A stretch of DNA of 58,864 bases, taken from positions 1 through 58,864 of the forward strand of contig JARLHL010000080.1 in NCBI GenBank assembly GCA_031292275.1. The letters run 5' to 3'. The position numbers were made by a program, and so were the translations under genes. This document shows, piece after piece, positions 5,866-58,502 of the stretch. The first letter of the stretch is position 1. Every line of letters begins with the position of its first letter. Source of the DNA: Desulfocapsaceae bacterium (GTDB lineage Bacteria; Desulfobacterota; Desulfobulbia; Desulfobulbales; Desulfocapsaceae). The notes under the pieces were generated by a model. That model saw only the letters and a list, made by a program, of their open reading frames with translations, made no database searches and was not told where the DNA came from.

Positions 5866-6055
5866 GCCCGCCTACTGCTCGATGGAGTTTCTGCAAGGAT
5901 CACCGTCCTTGATGCCCCCCAGGTTTCAATAGTTTTCAAACCTCTTGGATATCCCGACTTTATCTTGACATATGCTCTCTTGTATAGGTAGTCTGTGAGT
6001 CAGATTCGGAAGGTTCGTTGAGACGTGTATCATTCCTATCAAGGGAGGTTATTGT

Positions 6056-6448
6056 ATGAAGATTCTCGTGGGCTACAGAGGAACCAACGTCGGCAGGGAT
6101 CTCCTTGAGCAGGCCGTCAGGCAGGCCAGGGCCTATAATGCGGAGGTGCATGTGATCACCTCCCTCTATGGCGGCTCGATGACCGAGACTGAGACCATCA
6201 AGGAGGCGGAGGAAAACCTCGTCAACGCAAAGCAGTTTCTTGATTCCCAGGATGTGAAAAATCAGACTCACCTGCTGGTCAGAGGGAACCATCCCGGCGA
6301 GGATGTTGTCCTGTATGCCAAAGAGAACGATATCGATGAGATAATCATTGCGGTGAAGAGCCGGTCGAAGGTCGGCAAGATACTCTTCGGCTCCACTGCC
6401 CAGTATGTTATTCTCAAGGCTGAATGTCCCGTTCTTTCAGTTAAATAA
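6056..6448 (+). CDS. UspA-family universal stress protein
   Basis: This single-domain 130-residue protein begins MKILVGYRG and ends with the conserved Usp C-terminal block: IIIAVKSRSKVGKILFGST, then AECPVLSVK. That block forms the nucleotide-binding loop and last strand of the Rossmann-like fold; the small residues and ST after G suggest an ATP-binding type. Usp proteins are cytoplasmic stress or energy-limitation factors that act as dimers. The ATG follows GGGAGG at suitable spacing. A TTGACA lies at 5965-5970 but no good -10 at proper distance was found. It precedes the FAD oxidoreductase by 118 bases, possibly as one transcript. Confidence 0.85.
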   Translation: MKILVGYRGTNVGRDLLEQAVRQARAYNAEVHVITSLYGGSMTETETIKEAEENLVNAKQFLDSQDVKNQTHLLVRGNHPGEDVVLYAKENDIDEIIIAVKSRSKVGKILFGSTAQYVILKAECPVLSVK

Positions 6449-52101: not shown

Positions 52102-53295
52102 ATGTCAGAATGGATCAAGTGTAACACCACAGGCATTCGTTACCGGCTTCATGCCACCCGTAAGCATGGCGTCGGCTTCGATAAATACTTCACGATCCGA
52201 TACAAGGTTGCAGGCAAGGAGAAATCGGAGGGCTTGGGCTGGGCTACTGAAGGATGGACGGAAAAGAAGGCGGCGGCCGTTCTGTCAGAACTGAAGGCGA
52301 ACCATACCACCGGGACCGGCCCCCGGACCCTGACTGAAAAAAGAGAACTCCAGACACAAACAGAGCAGGAAGAGGCAAAGCGCTTACAGGAAGAGAAGGC
52401 CCGTAATATCACCTTTGGCGAAATTTTCACTGAGCGATATTATCCACAGGTACAGCATAGCACCAAAAACAAGCGTGGAATAGAGCGGGAATCTGAACTT
52501 TATAGGTTATGGATATCCCCCGTCATTGGAGGCCGCCCTATTCGTGAAATCATGCCCCTGCACCTTGAACGGATAAAGAAGAACATGGACAAGGCAGGGC
52601 GTGCGCCACGATCTATTCAGTATTGTCTGGCTATTGTCCGGCAGGTGTTCAATTATGCCAGCAAGAATAACTTGTTCATCGGAAAGAATCCTGCAGGTGC
52701 CACAGGGGGAGTACCGAGGCCAAAGTTTGACAACAGGCGGACCCGTTTTCTTTCCCGGCAAGAAGCGGCTGACTTACTGGCGGAGCTTGCGAAGAAGTCG
52801 GCAGAGATTTACGACATGGCACTTTTCAGTCTTTACACCGGTGCGCGCGCTGGGGAGATATTCAATCTGCAATGGGGTGAGGTTGACCTATTCCAAGGCG
52901 TTACCATGCTGAAGGATACTAAGAGCGGAAAGAATCGGCCCGTATTCCTCACGGATGAGGTCAAGGCTATGTTGGCGCATAGAAGGCCTTCCGATGCACA
53001 GGGAAGCTCCCTGGTGTTTCCTGGCCGTGATGGGGGAAAGCAGGTCAAGGTAAGCATCTTATTTCTTAAAGTCGTAAATTCACTCCAGTTCAATGAAGGC
53101 GTGTCGGATCGACGCCAGCGTGTCAGTTTTCATAGTCTACGCCACACCTACGCCTCATGGCTAGCCACGGATGGCGTTGACTTATATCACATCAAGGAAC
53201 TTATGGGACATTCAAGCATTACGCTCACAGAGCGTTACAGCCACCTTTCTGAATCGGTATTGAAACAGGCCGCATTGAGAATACAAAACGGCTAA
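52102..53295 (+). CDS. int: Tyrosine recombinase (phage-type integrase)
   Basis: The 397-residue protein has an N-terminal arm-binding region (about 1-90), a SAM-like core-binding domain (about 105-200) and the catalytic domain. Active-site residues are all visible: Arg in YTGARAGEI, Lys in KDTKSGKNR, His-x-x-Arg in HSLRHTYASW, His in GHSSITLTERY, and the nucleophile Tyr in ERYSHL. It cuts and rejoins DNA at the tRNA-Leu att site, 190 bases upstream. AAAAGGGG precedes the ATG. Intact, so the element to the right may be mobile. Confidence 0.95.
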   Translation: MSEWIKCNTTGIRYRLHATRKHGVGFDKYFTIRYKVAGKEKSEGLGWATEGWTEKKAAAVLSELKANHTTGTGPRTLTEKRELQTQTEQEEAKRLQEEKARNITFGEIFTERYYPQVQHSTKNKRGIERESELYRLWISPVIGGRPIREIMPLHLERIKKNMDKAGRAPRSIQYCLAIVRQVFNYASKNNLFIGKNPAGATGGVPRPKFDNRRTRFLSRQEAADLLAELAKKSAEIYDMALFSLYTGARAGEIFNLQWGEVDLFQGVTMLKDTKSGKNRPVFLTDEVKAMLAHRRPSDAQGSSLVFPGRDGGKQVKVSILFLKVVNSLQFNEGVSDRRQRVSFHSLRHTYASWLATDGVDLYHIKELMGHSSITLTERYSHLSESVLKQAALRIQNG

Positions 53296-54471: not shown

Positions 54472-54538
54472 TTTGTGTTCTTTGTGTCACCTTTCCCCGC
54501 CTTTTTTGTGTAACCATTACAACATATCCTAAGTCACC

Positions 54539-54566
54539 GGCCATATTGATTTTTTAAGATATGGCC
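54539..54566 (+). terminator. 8-bp hairpin with T-rich loop and tail
   Basis: GGCCATAT (54539-54546) and ATATGGCC (54559-54566) pair perfectly around a 12-base loop and are followed by TTCTATTCTT, 68 bases after the preceding stop codon. Confidence 0.5.
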
Positions 54567-54758
54567 TTCTATTCTTCACTTCCCCCTCTGTGTCACCATT
54601 TGTAGCGGATGTTGTGTCAGCTAACACATTGTAATTACGTATTTTATTCTTTACTCCTAATGTTTTGTGGCGTATTGTTTGCCTATATCAAGCGCCACAT
54701 GTGGTAATTGGCTCGGTTCTGCAGGACCCGGCCAGGCATTAACACCAGGAGTAAAAAA
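54567..54758. promoter_or_regulatory. Control region before the AlpA-like gene with operator-like palindrome
   Basis: TGTGTCAGCTAACACA (54613-54628) is a near-perfect 16-bp palindrome (14 of 16). GTGTCAC occurs nearby at about 54484 and 54593. The AT-rich stretch 54630-54665 after it is promoter-like. AGGAG stands seven bases before the next gene. Probably the switch region for the replication and regulation genes of the element. Confidence 0.4.
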
Positions 54759-55006: not shown

Positions 55007-55345
55007 ATGGAAAACAGAAAAGCAGCTTCACCCCCTCAGGCTGGCACCCTGGGCGAAACTGCTTCAAAACAAGATGCTAATTATACCACAAGCGCACATT
55101 GCCTTCCATGCCTTTCGGCTCGTCACAGAAGGATTCTCAAGGCACTGACCGAAAACCCGGCCGGGCTGCGCTCCTTCGATCTACGTAAACATTGCGGCTG
55201 CATGAACGTCGCGGATGAAGTGATGGCTATGCGGCGGCGAGGGTTTGATATTCCCTGCACCATGGAGCCATATAAAACTGTCGACGGGACTGAATCCAGA
55301 ATTGGCCGATATCGTTTGGTTGGTCAGGGGATGCCCAAAAAATGA
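55007..55345 (+). CDS. Winged-HTH protein (HTH_39-like)
   Basis: 112 residues. After a disordered head, residues 40-105 form a winged helix-turn-helix: SARHRRILKALTENPAGLRSFDLRKHCG, then DEVMAMRRRGFDIPCTM, then the wing GRYRLV. This matches the HTH domain often found next to phage primase genes. The start follows GGAGGTG at five bases, two bases after the AlpA-like gene. The end overlaps the replication gene by four bases (ATGA), implying a regulator of replication or a primase helper. Confidence 0.7.
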   Translation: MENRKAASPPQAGTLGETASKQDANYTTSAHCLPCLSARHRRILKALTENPAGLRSFDLRKHCGCMNVADEVMAMRRRGFDIPCTMEPYKTVDGTESRIGRYRLVGQGMPKK

Positions 55346-57192
55346 ATGGGCAATTTCCCGACTTAAAAAAGCCAGCATTGCAGATGGTGACGGCCGGTTT
55401 TTCGGTCATCCCCACCGGTGCCGACAAGAAGGCATCTATTTCCTGGAAACCACATCAATGTCGGTTGATGAACCCGGCAGAGGTCAATGAGCATTTCGGC
55501 AGCGCCGAGAGATTGGCGATTATCACAGGCTCAGTATCCGGCAACCTCGAATGTCTAGACCTTGACGCTCCTGAGGTATATCAACCCTTCCTCGATCTTC
55601 TGGAGGCCAGGAGACCAGGCCTTGCCGCAAAGCTCTTGAAGCGCCAGACACCCTCTGGCGGCTTCCATCTCGTTTATCGTTGTAGCAGTCCGGTAGGAGG
55701 AAACCTAAAACTTGCTTGCACCAAGGATAATCTGGTCCGGATCGAGACCAGAGGGGAGGGCGGATATTTTCTGTCTGCCCCTTCTCCCGGCTATATTGTC
55801 ATTGAAGGCAGTATGCTGGACTGCCCTATCCTTTCCCCTGAAGAGGTTCAGGCGATCCACAGCACTGCAAAGGCTTTTGACCAACGGCAGCAGCAGGCAC
55901 CGCTGGAACAGAATCAGCACTCCAAAAAATCAGTGGGTGACAGCGACCGGCCAGGAGACCGTTTTAAGGAAGAACATTCTATTGCTGAAATGCTGGCAAA
56001 ATATGGATGGCGCGAAGATCGTAAAACAACTGGCGGCATGGGGTGGACAAGGCCTGGAAAAGAGAAAGGGACCAGTGGGGTATTACTGGAAACTGGAAAT
56101 TTCTATTGTTGGAGTGCTAACGCCTCTCCACTTGAACCTGAAAAATCCTATGATGCGTTCGCAATCTTTGTCTCATATGAGCATGGCGGCGACTTCTCGG
56201 CGGCGGCTCGGTCACTCGGTGGAGGATGCAAAACGGCAGATCAGCAACGAAAAGAATATTCTTCTGTACAGCAGGGATCGGCGGTGGATCAACAGAGAAA
56301 ATTTGTTCCGGTCAGTATTGCCGACTTTCTTTCAATGGAGTTTCCACCCCGCGACCAGCTGTTAGCTCCATGGCTTCCTTCTCAAGGACTTACGATGGTC
56401 TTTGCATACCGTGGGGTAGGCAAGACACATTTTGCTTTAGGTGTTGCTTATGCCGTCAGTTCGGGCGGGTCTTTTCTTGGATGGCAGGCACCGGCACCGG
56501 CGGGAGTTCTCTACATTGACGGCGAAATGCCCGGCCCGGTGATGCAGGAACGCTTAAGCGCGATCATTACCAGTAACGAGAAGGAGCCAGCGGCACCGTT
56601 CATCCTATTGACTCCAGACCTACAACCCGAAGGAATGCCGAGGCTTGACTCAGATGAGGGGCAGGCAGCTATTGAGGGCATTATCACAGATGATATTAAG
56701 CTCATCGTCGTGGACAATATCAGCACACTATCAGGCGCGAAGGAAAACGAGGCTGATGGATGGACCCCAATCCAAGAGTGGGCGCTGCGTCAACGGTCAA
56801 AAGGGCGCTCTGTTTTGTTTGTTCATCATAGCGGCAAGGGTGGGCAGCAGAGAGGCACCAGCAGGCGCGAGGATGTTCTTGATACCGTTATCGCTTTACG
56901 TCGACCGGTTGACTACAAGCCCGACCAGGGTGCCGTATTTGAGATTCATTTTGAAAAAGCCAGGGGCATCTATGGCGATGATGTGCAATCCATCGAGGCC
57001 ACTCTATCAACAGACGACCAGGGGCGCAGGTCTTGGCTTACCCGGAGTGTTGAGGCCGGAAACTTTGACCGCATCGTTCAGATGACCAATGACGGCATGA
57101 AACAAGGAGAGATCGCAGCGGAGCTTAATTTGCATAAATCAAATGTCTCCCGGCATCTCAAGAAAGCGAAGGCCGAAGGATTGGTGAAATAA
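55342..57192 (+). CDS. Replication protein: Prim-Pol domain plus RecA-like ATPase and HTH
   Basis: The 616-residue protein has four parts. An archaeo-eukaryotic-type primase-polymerase domain spans 1-175, with catalytic DLD in LECLDLDAPE and the SGGFHLVYR His motif. A middle domain spans about 215-300 (GWTRPGKEKGTSG, YEHGGDFSAAARSLGG) and is common in phage primases. A RecA-like ATPase spans about 330-535, with Walker A AYRGVGKTH near 355 and Walker B IKLIVVDN near 453. A C-terminal HTH reads KQGEIAAELNLHKSNVSRHLKKA. It should unwind and prime DNA at the element's own origin. The repeat-filled gene follows directly, its start overlapping this stop by one base. Confidence 0.85.
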   Translation: MNGQFPDLKKPALQMVTAGFSVIPTGADKKASISWKPHQCRLMNPAEVNEHFGSAERLAIITGSVSGNLECLDLDAPEVYQPFLDLLEARRPGLAAKLLKRQTPSGGFHLVYRCSSPVGGNLKLACTKDNLVRIETRGEGGYFLSAPSPGYIVIEGSMLDCPILSPEEVQAIHSTAKAFDQRQQQAPLEQNQHSKKSVGDSDRPGDRFKEEHSIAEMLAKYGWREDRKTTGGMGWTRPGKEKGTSGVLLETGNFYCWSANASPLEPEKSYDAFAIFVSYEHGGDFSAAARSLGGGCKTADQQRKEYSSVQQGSAVDQQRKFVPVSIADFLSMEFPPRDQLLAPWLPSQGLTMVFAYRGVGKTHFALGVAYAVSSGGSFLGWQAPAPAGVLYIDGEMPGPVMQERLSAIITSNEKEPAAPFILLTPDLQPEGMPRLDSDEGQAAIEGIITDDIKLIVVDNISTLSGAKENEADGWTPIQEWALRQRSKGRSVLFVHHSGKGGQQRGTSRREDVLDTVIALRRPVDYKPDQGAVFEIHFEKARGIYGDDVQSIEATLSTDDQGRRSWLTRSVEAGNFDRIVQMTNDGMKQGEIAAELNLHKSNVSRHLKKAKAEGLVK

Positions 57193-57611
57193 TGAGTCCA
57201 TTTTATGACAAAGTTGCGAGTTGCGTGGGTATGGGGCGCAACAGCGCAACTTTTGACCTTTTGAGCGCAACTCGCAGCGCAACGACCCCGCAACCACTAA
57301 GCCTGAAAGCCTTAGCCAGTAAGGTTTTAGAGCGCAACGCATACCGCAACATGCACGCAACTTTACCTGACAATGTAGCGCAACTTTTACCCCTAAAAGA
57401 GGCTAAAAAGTTGCGTACCATTTCAGAGTTAGGCAAGACGGGGGACAGTTTACCGGACCCTGGACACCGGCGGCAAATCACATGCCAGGCGTTTGAGTAC
57501 AACGGTGTGATGATGTCCACCAGTTCGTACCATTGCCGGGAATGGCAGGGAGAATACTGCCATGGCTGCGAACTCCAAATACCAACAAAAACCTATGAGG
57601 AATTTTCATGA
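57192..57611 (+). CDS. Hypothetical protein whose gene carries the CGCAAC repeat cluster
   Basis: 139 residues, start overlapping the replication gene's stop by one base, stop overlapping the next start by four. The N-terminal half is a low-complexity run of SAT/RNA/HAT tripeptides (RNSATF, LSATRSATT, ERNAYRNMHATL) produced because the DNA motif CGCAAC recurs in different frames. The C-terminal half has a few conserved-looking residues including four Cys (TCQAFEY, HCREWQGEYCHGCEL), perhaps a zinc site. Similar repeat-laden small ORFs often follow primase genes in proteobacterial integrative elements. The protein may be secondary to the DNA sequence it contains. Confidence 0.6.
   Translation: MSPFYDKVASCVGMGRNSATFDLLSATRSATTPQPLSLKALASKVLERNAYRNMHATLPDNVAQLLPLKEAKKLRTISELGKTGDSLPDPGHRRQITCQAFEYNGVMMSTSSYHCREWQGEYCHGCELQIPTKTYEEFS
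57213..57415. repeat. Iteron-like cluster: 12 copies of CGCAAC / GTTGCG, candidate replication origin
   Basis: CGCAAC starts at 57237, 57245, 57266, 57278, 57289, 57333, 57345, 57356 and 57379; its complement GTTGCG at 57213, 57220 and 57410. By chance about 0.1 copies are expected in this length. Five copies extend to CGCAACTTT (57245, 57356, 57379 and, inverted, 57213 and 57410); most are preceded by AG. The spacing of several copies is 11-12 bases, about one helical turn. Position directly after the replication gene fits an origin. Confidence 0.65.
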
Positions 57612-58252
57612 ACAAAACTGTACAGAAAAAAGCATCACCGCCAGCGGATCAGCAGACGGCGGTCATTTCATACCAGCCTACGCCCCAGGAGGTGAACGCA
57701 ATTGAGTCCTTCCGGGAAATCAGGAAGAAACGGCCCCCGGCACCACGAATGAAGAAAATTGAAGCGCCTGGAAATACAATCATTGATGTCGACCATTCCA
57801 ATCCCCCCGTTGGATACGCACTCCTGTATAACTCTCTCGCCACAACGTCAAAGGATTTCGCGGATGGAGTATTAAGCCAGCTGGGAAACATCTGTCCTGA
57901 AGGTGATGGCATGAGTCTAGACGGCCTCAACTTTGCCCTGGCTGTTATTGATGGGATTAGACCTCAAGACCAACTTGAAACGCTCCTGGTGACGCAGATG
58001 GCGGCTGTCCACTGTGCCACAATGAAGATGGCGAGCCGGTTAGTCAGGGCCGAAAATATGTTCCAACGAGATCACGCAGAGCTTTCCCTGAACAGGTTCA
58101 CTAGGACCTTCGCGGCGCAGCTTGAAGCCTTGAAGAAATACCGGAGCACAGGGCAGCAGACCGTCAAGGTAGAACATGTCCACGTTAATGAAGGAGGCCA
58201 GGCAATTATAGGGACCATAGACCGTAGCAAGGCACCAGGGGAGGGGGAGTAA
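57608..58252 (+). CDS. Conserved hypothetical protein of integrative elements, 214 aa
   Basis: After a disordered, basic head (to about 50), the protein has a helical body: PQDQLETLLVTQMAAVHCATMKMASRL, then LNRFTRTFAAQLEALKKYRSTGQQTVKVEHVHVNEGGQAIIG. This LL..QMAAVH...M...L / LEALKKYR / HVHVNEGGQAI pattern is a recurring but uncharacterised family in proteobacterial prophages and islands. It overlaps the repeat-bearing gene by four bases and is one base from the next gene. Its role is unknown; conserved pairing with the next small Cys protein suggests they act together. Confidence 0.65.
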   Translation: MNKTVQKKASPPADQQTAVISYQPTPQEVNAIESFREIRKKRPPAPRMKKIEAPGNTIIDVDHSNPPVGYALLYNSLATTSKDFADGVLSQLGNICPEGDGMSLDGLNFALAVIDGIRPQDQLETLLVTQMAAVHCATMKMASRLVRAENMFQRDHAELSLNRFTRTFAAQLEALKKYRSTGQQTVKVEHVHVNEGGQAIIGTIDRSKAPGEGE

Positions 58253-58253
58253 C

Positions 58254-58502
58254 ATGAAGCCTTCAATTTACCCCATGCAATCCGTTTACTGCGGAGCAAA
58301 AACCCGTAACGGTGGCAAGTGCAGGAATCATTCTATGATGAATGGCCGGTGCCGGATGCATGGCGGCAAAGCAAAATCCGGCATGGACCATGGCCGCTAT
58401 ACGGAAGGCAACTTTACAAAAGAGGCGATTGCCTCAAGGCGTAAATTTTCGGAACTTATGCGGATGTCTCGGGAATTATTAAAAGGGATAAATAGTAAGT
58501 AA
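58254..58502 (+). CDS. HGGxxxG-motif small Cys-rich protein, 82 aa
   Basis: GAGGGGGAG precedes the ATG. The first half has CGAKTRNGGKCRNHSMMNGRCRMHGGKAKSG, the pattern C-x-A-x-T-R-x-G-x2-C-x10-C-x2-H-G-G found in many small phage and island proteins; the Cys and His probably bind zinc. A GRYTEG turn and a helical end follow. The family usually lies beside the conserved hypothetical encoded just upstream. Biochemical role unknown, possibly nucleic-acid binding. Confidence 0.7.
   Translation: MKPSIYPMQSVYCGAKTRNGGKCRNHSMMNGRCRMHGGKAKSGMDHGRYTEGNFTKEAIASRRKFSELMRMSRELLKGINSK

Follow-up and report, generated by a model that had tools for sequence, protein, structure and literature searches.

The 58,864-nucleotide contig JARLHL010000080.1 of a Desulfocapsaceae bacterium, hereafter the window, contains a dense array of short DNA words directly downstream of a gene encoding a RepA-like helicase. 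Comparison with homologous loci makes it very likely that this array is the target of the C-terminal helix-turn-helix (HTH) domain of the initiator encoded immediately upstream and, most likely, the replication origin of the element that carries both. The comparison supports selection acting on the DNA word and its spacing, as well as the assignment of the helicase to the RSF1010 RepA fold; the reading of the array as an origin is derived from the nature of the partner enzyme and from precedent.

Twelve exact copies of CGCAAC or GTTGCG, nine on the plus strand and three on the minus strand, are packed into the 203 bp between positions 57213 and 57415, in the strand order - - + + + + + + + + + - and with start-to-start spacings of 7, 17, 8, 21, 12, 11, 44, 12, 11, 23, and 31 bp. 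The sites occupy all three frames of the open reading frame (ORF) at 57192-57611, and five of the copies read CGCAACTTT. About 0.09 copies per 203 bp are expected from the shuffle mean, which translates into an approximately 130-fold local excess. In the whole window, CGCAAC/GTTGCG occurs 26 times, compared to 25.6 occurrences expected from shuffled sequences; thus, the excess of the word is local and does not reflect general enrichment. No other hexamer except poly-A exceeds 7 copies in any of the 203-bp segments sampled every 20 bases, and, within the 4.14-Mb genome, a pattern of three CGCAAC words with gaps of 1-30 yields five overlapping matches, all at the array, with none for the reversed triple-word pattern used as a control. 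The first-pass annotation of this DNA, which had reported 12 copies within about 200 bases at roughly 100 times the chance level, in both orientations and more than one frame, with five copies sharing one longer sequence, was accurate on all these points.

The array opens with a left inverted quad of two minus-strand words followed by two plus-strand words (57213..57250, both strands), which is capable of forming a hairpin (-15.9 kcal/mol, z -4.8, for single-stranded DNA folding of the window copy). Next come two lattice triplets on the plus strand, A (57266..57294; words at 57266, 57278, and 57289) and B (57333..57361; words at 57333, 57345, and 57356), that constitute an imperfect 36-nt repeat, 67 bp apart. 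The right-hand pair (57379..57415) consists of a plus-strand word at 57379 and the terminal inverted word at 57410, which together form the inverted repeat I2.

The initiator gene (55342..57192, plus strand) lies directly upstream of the ORF with the array and encodes a 616-aa protein that, as initially proposed, combines a Prim-Pol domain (PF09250, aa 12-149), a RepA-like AAA_25 domain with a RecA-like core (aa 320-502), and a C-terminal HTH domain (about aa 577-616). The AlphaFold2 model (85-row alignment, mean pLDDT 92.7) has RSF1010 RepA as its closest fold (Foldseek ranks 1-4), and RSF1010 RepA is also matched by sequence (phmmer, E 8e-6). The recognition helix in the model, KSNVSRHLKKAKA, spans aa 599-611 (57136..57174, plus strand), with N601, encoded at 57142-57144, as its third residue. 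In L151, L108, and L138, relatives whose rep gene is short, the gene just upstream encodes a Toprim_3 domain (the three upstream genes that were scanned were picked by eye among 12 listed); apparently, the primase partner varies, whereas the AAA+HTH portion and the array stay. The original identification of the Prim-Pol protein as the partner of the array, accordingly, stands for its RepA-like AAA+HTH half and falls for the Prim-Pol part.

A tyrosine integrase gene (52102..53295, plus strand) indicates that the element is integrative. A small winged-HTH protein (HTH_39; 55007..55345, plus strand) is encoded directly upstream of the initiator gene, and the array ORF is followed by a 214-aa ORF (57608..58252, plus strand) and an 82-aa ORF with an HGGK motif (58254..58502, plus strand), both syntenic in L030 and L087. 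There are no tRNA genes in the window, and the contig ends at 58864, so that the right end of the element lies outside the view. Upstream of the operon, three intergenic copies of TGTGTCA within 137 bp (54483-54619) are possible regulator sites; the whole window contains 8 copies versus 4.1 expected.

Relatives were searched for with the AAA+HTH half of the initiator, and the resulting set covers 26 of the 257 genomes of the class, the best 80 of 197 loci on genome contigs, and the best 80 of 87 loci on viral contigs. Querying the viral contigs with the single protein retrieved no relative; an alignment query did match. Altogether, a rep gene was identified at 178 loci, of which 166 had enough 3' sequence to be evaluated. 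For each, the densest hexamer in 300 bp was sought from -100 to +700 of the rep stop and compared with 50 dinucleotide shuffles; a locus passed with at least 6 copies and a count above every one of the 50 shuffles, near-duplicate loci being counted. Arrays 3' of the rep gene were detected at 125 of the 166 evaluable loci: the window (1/1), the relatives (11/15), the genome contigs (67/77, from the best 80 of 197), and the viral contigs (46/73, from the best 80 of 87). Among control regions, scored above the same shuffle maximum with no demand for 6 copies, 9/154 upstream and 10/166 gene-internal regions passed, and the corresponding controls for the 77 genome-contig loci gave 2/76 and 1/77. 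The median array starts at +14 from the rep stop. The threshold was missed by 10/77 genome-contig, 27/73 viral, and 4/15 relative loci; at several of the failing genome-contig loci, the top word nevertheless fits the helix (KST and GTTGCA in L114; SRFQL and CGCACA in L157). The layout, which the first-pass annotation suggested would be distinctive for this element class, is widespread rather than confined to this element.

The words found across the relatives include CGCAAC, TGCAAC, GCAACA, CGCACA, GCACCA, GGAAAC, GGAACA, and GGGACA, among others, and most loci have a word core of 5-6 bp with free flanks. Two plasmids, pATHE01 and pANACY.03, encode a distant AAA rep-type gene with a similar array inside its own 3' coding part: the pATHE01 gene, which matches over both AAA and HTH, carries the array on the reverse strand directly after the HTH region, in an HSIHSIHSI... 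tail (L255, 1738-1910), and the pANACY.03 gene, which matches over the AAA part only, carries it at 5961-6182 (L258). No array was found at L024, an AAA+HTH fragment located by CBASS genes on Nitrobacter hamburgensis plasmid 2 (6022-6471), or directly 3' of the gene in the three distant phage relatives inspected (Neferthena and two Manatee Spring phages); one of these phages, MW202711, has ten GGGACA copies about 1.4 kb beyond the gene. At one locus (L079 in G201), the complete array is present in tandem twice 3' of the rep stop, with the spacings unchanged, and, at another (L081 in G146), a stop interrupts the rep gene of a decaying element and GGAAAC copies remain downstream. Relatives of the Prim-Pol N-terminus that continue into other C-terminal domains lack the AAA+HTH partner and were set aside; some of these contain other hexamer clusters inside their coding tails. 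Furthermore, four other Prim-Pol/AAA genes (L025, L031, L041, and L042) have clusters of ACGAAT, GGAACA, GGGACA, and TGCCAA in or near the C-terminal coding part, which suggests that hexamer clusters at such genes extend beyond the RepA-HTH family.

The word of an array changes with the HTH of the adjacent initiator. Among loci at least 38% identical to the nearest query row and with word clusters of 6 or more copies, recognition helices and words pair with few exceptions: [KR]S[NST][VI]xR with GCAAC, KGxVSK with GGAAAC, SRFxL with CGCACA, and HSTxVR with GCACCA; GGGACA pairs with an RDIAEET-type HTH that has a KSx helix. Across 90 loci (L081, which has no HTH, was left out), word similarity correlates with HTH identity once AAA identity is removed (partial rank r 0.56, 0/2000 permutations), and with AAA identity once HTH identity is removed at r 0.12 (17/2000). 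In a leave-one-out prediction open to neighbors of any relatedness, the word was named correctly from the nearest HTH in 69/79 cases and from the nearest AAA domain in 65/79; with neighbors restricted to AAA identity below 60%, the values are 57/67 and 32/67, and, below 50%, 44/54 and 15/54, with 17 for random choice. Prediction from the AAA domain thus collapses at a distance, such that the helicase core carries the word only via close kinship, whereas the HTH carries it beyond. The comparison, accordingly, supports the assignment of the array word to the HTH rather than to the helicase core.

A finer correspondence involves a single residue and a single base. At loci with N601, the base before GCAAC is mainly C in 14/15 cases, the exception being L156, which has N601 and yet mostly T; at loci with S or T at this position, it is mainly T in 16/25 and mainly C in 9/25 (Fisher p 6e-4 for residue 601 versus the first word base). 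Residue 601 requires 13 changes over the 40 rows of the AAA tree, 11 of these forced by well-supported branches, and the number of changes is no smaller than for shuffled labels, that is, the residue is unclustered on the tree. Among 15 greedily chosen nearest pairs, residue and base agree in 13, with one tie (L156/L169) and one contrary pair (L146/L174).

Close relatives show concerted changes of this kind. In L076 and L075, whose AAA domains are 88% identical, the GCAAC cores agree at 64/65 bases, the base before the core at 1/13, and the remainder of the array at 102/182. Weaker cases of the same kind are L097/L098 (cores 80/90, base before 7/16, remainder 59%) and L108/L130 (cores 74/85, base before 4/15, remainder 59%). 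Pairs with the same word hold the base before the core better (10/12 for the window and L030; 11/14 for L110 and L132). Intermediate arrays also exist, with 8 T and 6 C in L099 and 4 T and 6 C in L116. In the three close pairs, the word change amounts to one base replaced at most sites together, along with the HTH; over eight aligned pairs, the cores are kept and the remainder agrees at 36-72%. Conserved cores within a diverged remainder, together with concerted switches, indicate that selection holds the DNA word. Homologs had been proposed as a check for a peptide that is kept while CGCAAC is broken, and the opposite was observed, most clearly in L076/L075. The original view that selection acts on the DNA motif and not on the peptide holds for the words, given the concerted switching, and probably does not hold for the gap at 57300-57335, given the third-position variation described below.

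The arrangement of the words recurs as well, in the strand and spacing order - 8 - 19 + 8 + 21 + 12 + 11 + 44 + 12 + 11 + 22 + 31 -. The twelve positions of this layout were used as a geometry template that was drawn by eye from the array listing, so that the scores of GCAAC arrays are circular and those of the other words only partly independent; near-duplicates were counted, and no score was assigned to two arrays that had fewer than 5 sites. A template score T of at least 7 was reached by 62/125 arrays, with the other 63/125 below T 7; permuted-spacing templates score about 4.5-5 on average. By word, T of at least 7 was obtained for 38/47 GCAAC, 9/12 GGAAAC, 8/13 GGGACA, 3/6 CGCACA, 2/2 GGAACA, 1/1 GAACAA, and 1/2 CGCACC arrays, that is, in 22/33 arrays with GGAAAC, GGGACA, CGCACA, or GGAACA. 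Same-strand sites recur with a period of 11.0 bp where the locus fits the template and of 10.9 bp where it does not; the power of the jitter control stays at or below 0.5, and the same-strand spectrum shows none at 9 or 12 bp, which points to helical phasing rather than a codon multiple. Among the 93 loops of inverted word pairs in the relatives (any minus-strand word followed by a plus-strand word 13-22 bp on), 26 contain CTAG versus 0.98 expected for the same loci; the CTAG-bearing loops are often similar to CCCTAGGG, and the loop in the window has no CTAG. A second binding or nicking site is a possible explanation for the CTAG in these loops. Near-duplicates (L095, L100, L178, L184, L189, and L197) were left out of the helix-word, partial-rank, loop, AT/DnaA, period, and gap-codon analyses, and some of these counts also left out L177, L180, L123, L077, and others.

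In the window, the array occupies the 5' part of a 139-aa ORF (57192..57611, plus strand) that shares one base with the rep stop codon. This ORF has no Pfam match above the cut-off and no PHROG match, and is partly similar to ORFs of L030, L075, L076, and L077; seven array ORFs that were scanned yielded no Pfam match above the cut-off and one weak zinc-ribbon match. At least 43 of the 62 template-fitting arrays lie within one plus-strand ORF, a lower bound given that the test took the best ORF on either strand, and an ATGA overlap precedes 56/125 arrays, near-duplicates being counted in both tallies. Some of the template-fitting arrays lack any frame that stays open throughout, so that coding, although common, is not required. 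The leader peptide spells the word, with ATxxAT and RNxxRN for GCAAC, GNxxGN and ET for GGAAAC, and GT and RD for GGGACA, and the parts of the ORFs beyond the leader differ between elements (by eye, among those listed).

The stretch between the two triplets, SLKALASKVLER (57300..57335, plus strand), encodes a peptide of the SLKALAxKVLxR type. The gap DNA resembles that of the window in 26 of the 56 non-duplicate template-fitting relatives (beyond 199/200 shuffles). In these 26 relatives, picked on DNA similarity alone, the mean entropy of the three codon positions is 0.98, 0.69, and 1.35 (61/5000 permutations as extreme), and the stretch contains no stops. The higher variability of third positions, together with the lack of stops, suggests that this stretch is kept as a peptide; SLKALAxKVLxR, judged by this codon pattern, is probably selected as such. 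The low-complexity label initially given to the ORF is therefore appropriate only in part, as the inter-triplet stretch behaves as coding sequence in the relatives. A previous codon test (40/118 arrays; among differing codon pairs, 2181 synonymous and 887 not) was dropped, as choosing rows by peptide pattern favors synonymous changes and two of the 40 rows (the window and L156) consisted of the rep tail.

In the mechanism that we propose, HTH domains of a RepA-like helicase, presumably hexameric, would bind the 5-6 bp words displayed on one face of the helix in an 11-bp lattice, and the helicase would assemble and be loaded at the array. The inverted quad may extrude as a hairpin, the RecA-like core would unwind the DNA, and the fused Prim-Pol domain would prime synthesis. 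At the same time, the array overlaps the start of the next gene, the leader of which spells the words in three frames and retains SLKALAxKVLxR in the 44-bp gap.

The array could, instead, be an operator bound by the HTH that sets or represses the level of the rep operon, that is, a site of autoregulation. This is unlikely. The match between HTH and word would suit any binding role, and the arrays do lie inside the operon, commonly following the ATGA overlap, but a simple scan for the sigma-70 consensus detected no promoter-like site in the array ORF (other promoter types are beyond such a scan), the binding domain is part of a RepA-type helicase, and about a dozen phased sites in a recurring 200-bp layout with an inverted quad would seem to exceed the usual operator. 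Still less likely is a partition (centromere-like) site or an incompatibility or copy-number site. Clustered, phased repeats beside a DNA-binding ATPase also would suit a centromere, but the ATPase here is of the RepA/DnaB type, fused to Prim-Pol in the window or adjacent to TOPRIM in three relatives, rather than ParA or ParM, and the only partition-type matches of the HTH are weak (KorB below the cut-off and a ParB-like PHROG at E 0.29).

It is highly improbable that the repeats arise at the amino-acid level, through selection on the peptide of a low-complexity protein: the conserved, stop-free gap with its variable third positions speaks for such selection, but the words occupy three frames and two strands, recur with a period of 11 rather than 9 or 12, change together with the HTH such that the peptide is altered, and persist in template-fitting arrays through which no frame is open. 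Chance or a recent tandem expansion of a short repeat, despite local duplications in some arrays (such as that in L079), has a negligible probability given the 125/166 loci with at least 6 copies above all 50 shuffles and the cores kept while the remainder diverged.

The array, as the probable origin of the element, departs from two better characterized origin types. Of the features of a DnaA/DUE-type theta origin, repeats beside the initiator gene are present, but an AT-rich element and an enrichment of DnaA boxes are not: the mean profile over 53 loci has no AT-rich segment (the deepest 25-bp dip lies 6% GC under the locus mean), and DnaA boxes, counted as exact TTATNCACA only, are not enriched in these loci (1 in 53 kb near the array and 13 in 432 kb elsewhere). 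As the array lacks defining features of the DnaA/AT-rich iteron origin as well as of the PICI origin, it is assigned to neither type. The cumulative GC skew of pATHE01 and of two phage records is close to one-directional. The Caldicellulosiruptor literature, in the excerpts available, yielded no origin data for pBAL.

An initiator gene followed by its iterons on the 3' side is a known general plan. In phage lambda, the iterons of ori-lambda lie inside coding sequence, in the gene of the very initiator, O, that binds them; by contrast, the arrays described here are mostly in the next gene, with arrays in the initiator's own gene in pATHE01 and pANACY.03. The alpha protein of phage P4 also has a DNA-binding domain and iterons, but its helicase family and iterons are unlike those here. 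According to the available parts of the sources, P4 alpha is similar in joining a primase to a helicase and in serving the own origin of a satellite (PMC4234260, PMC6092414), but its primase is of the TOPRIM type (PMC4234260), in contrast to the Prim-Pol domain in the window. The crenarchaeal pRN1 protein ORF904 likewise combines an archaeo-eukaryotic primase, a helicase, and a C-terminal winged helix, with a required region just downstream; as the excerpted source describes it, however, the helicase belongs to SF3 and the region is a 100-nt stem-loop, with no iterons (PMC4234260).

Further likenesses are found in the SaPI/PICI rep-ori module and in RSF1010. In the portions of the papers at hand, the C-terminal domain of SaPI Rep and SCCmec Cch2 binds iterons directly 3' of the gene (PMC7581432), and Gram-negative PICIs have iterons 3' of rep (PMC6092414), so that the elements share a helicase initiator whose gene is immediately followed by short iterons, an adjacent or fused primase, and an integrative lifestyle (PMC7581432, PMC6092414). 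The SaPI Reps, however, are described in these portions as related to DUF927 or Primase_Cterm/D5, in contrast to the RecA-like AAA_25 of the RSF1010 RepA type here; the SaPI/PICI origins have an AT-rich region between two iteron sets, whereas the 43-44 bp inter-triplet gap here is not AT-rich; and the 11-bp lattice and the frequent overlap of the array with coding sequence set the present arrays apart. The C-terminal domain decides origin specificity in SaPI/PICI, and such a role of the HTH, for which the pairing with the word across relatives is strong comparative support, is probable here. RSF1010 (IncQ), with its RepA-RepB'-RepC/oriV system, provides the closest solved helicase fold and the same division of labor, with a separate iteron binder, a helicase, and a primase, and priming at stem-loops, as far as the consulted part of the source goes (PMC4234260). 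Unlike RSF1010, where a separate RepC binds the iterons, the word-matching and probably iteron-binding HTH is fused to the helicase here, the primase is fused as well in the window (Prim-Pol), and the words are 5-6 bp long. Listings of open-licence PMC papers showed no prior description of a RepA-HTH family that has arrays of its own, of the helix-word correspondence, or of the exchangeable-word 11-bp layout, nor of a quad with CTAG or a coding leader shared with the array.

A more far-reaching joint proposal, which we advance tentatively and consider rather doubtful as a whole, is that these loci represent a widespread class of replicons in which the origin doubles as a gene start, the HTH reads a 200-bp, 11-bp-phased lattice by a recognition code of a simple kind (such as KSN for CGCAAC, KST or KSS for TGCAAC, KGxVSK for GGAAAC, SRFxL for CGCACA, and HSTxVR for GCACCA), the origin itself encodes a replication factor, SLKALAxKVLxR, and concerted switches of word and HTH produce mutually incompatible replicons on one chassis.

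From sequence alone, the present analysis links an initiator family found on integrated elements to the DNA that it probably targets; this link could serve to locate origins and to predict their words from the HTH. Close relatives that differ at residue 601 and in one base are natural experiments on how initiator and origin change together without loss of replication. If confirmed, the findings would provide compact replicons whose specificities can be read and kept apart, as well as a clear instance of one stretch of DNA serving both as an origin and as a coding leader.
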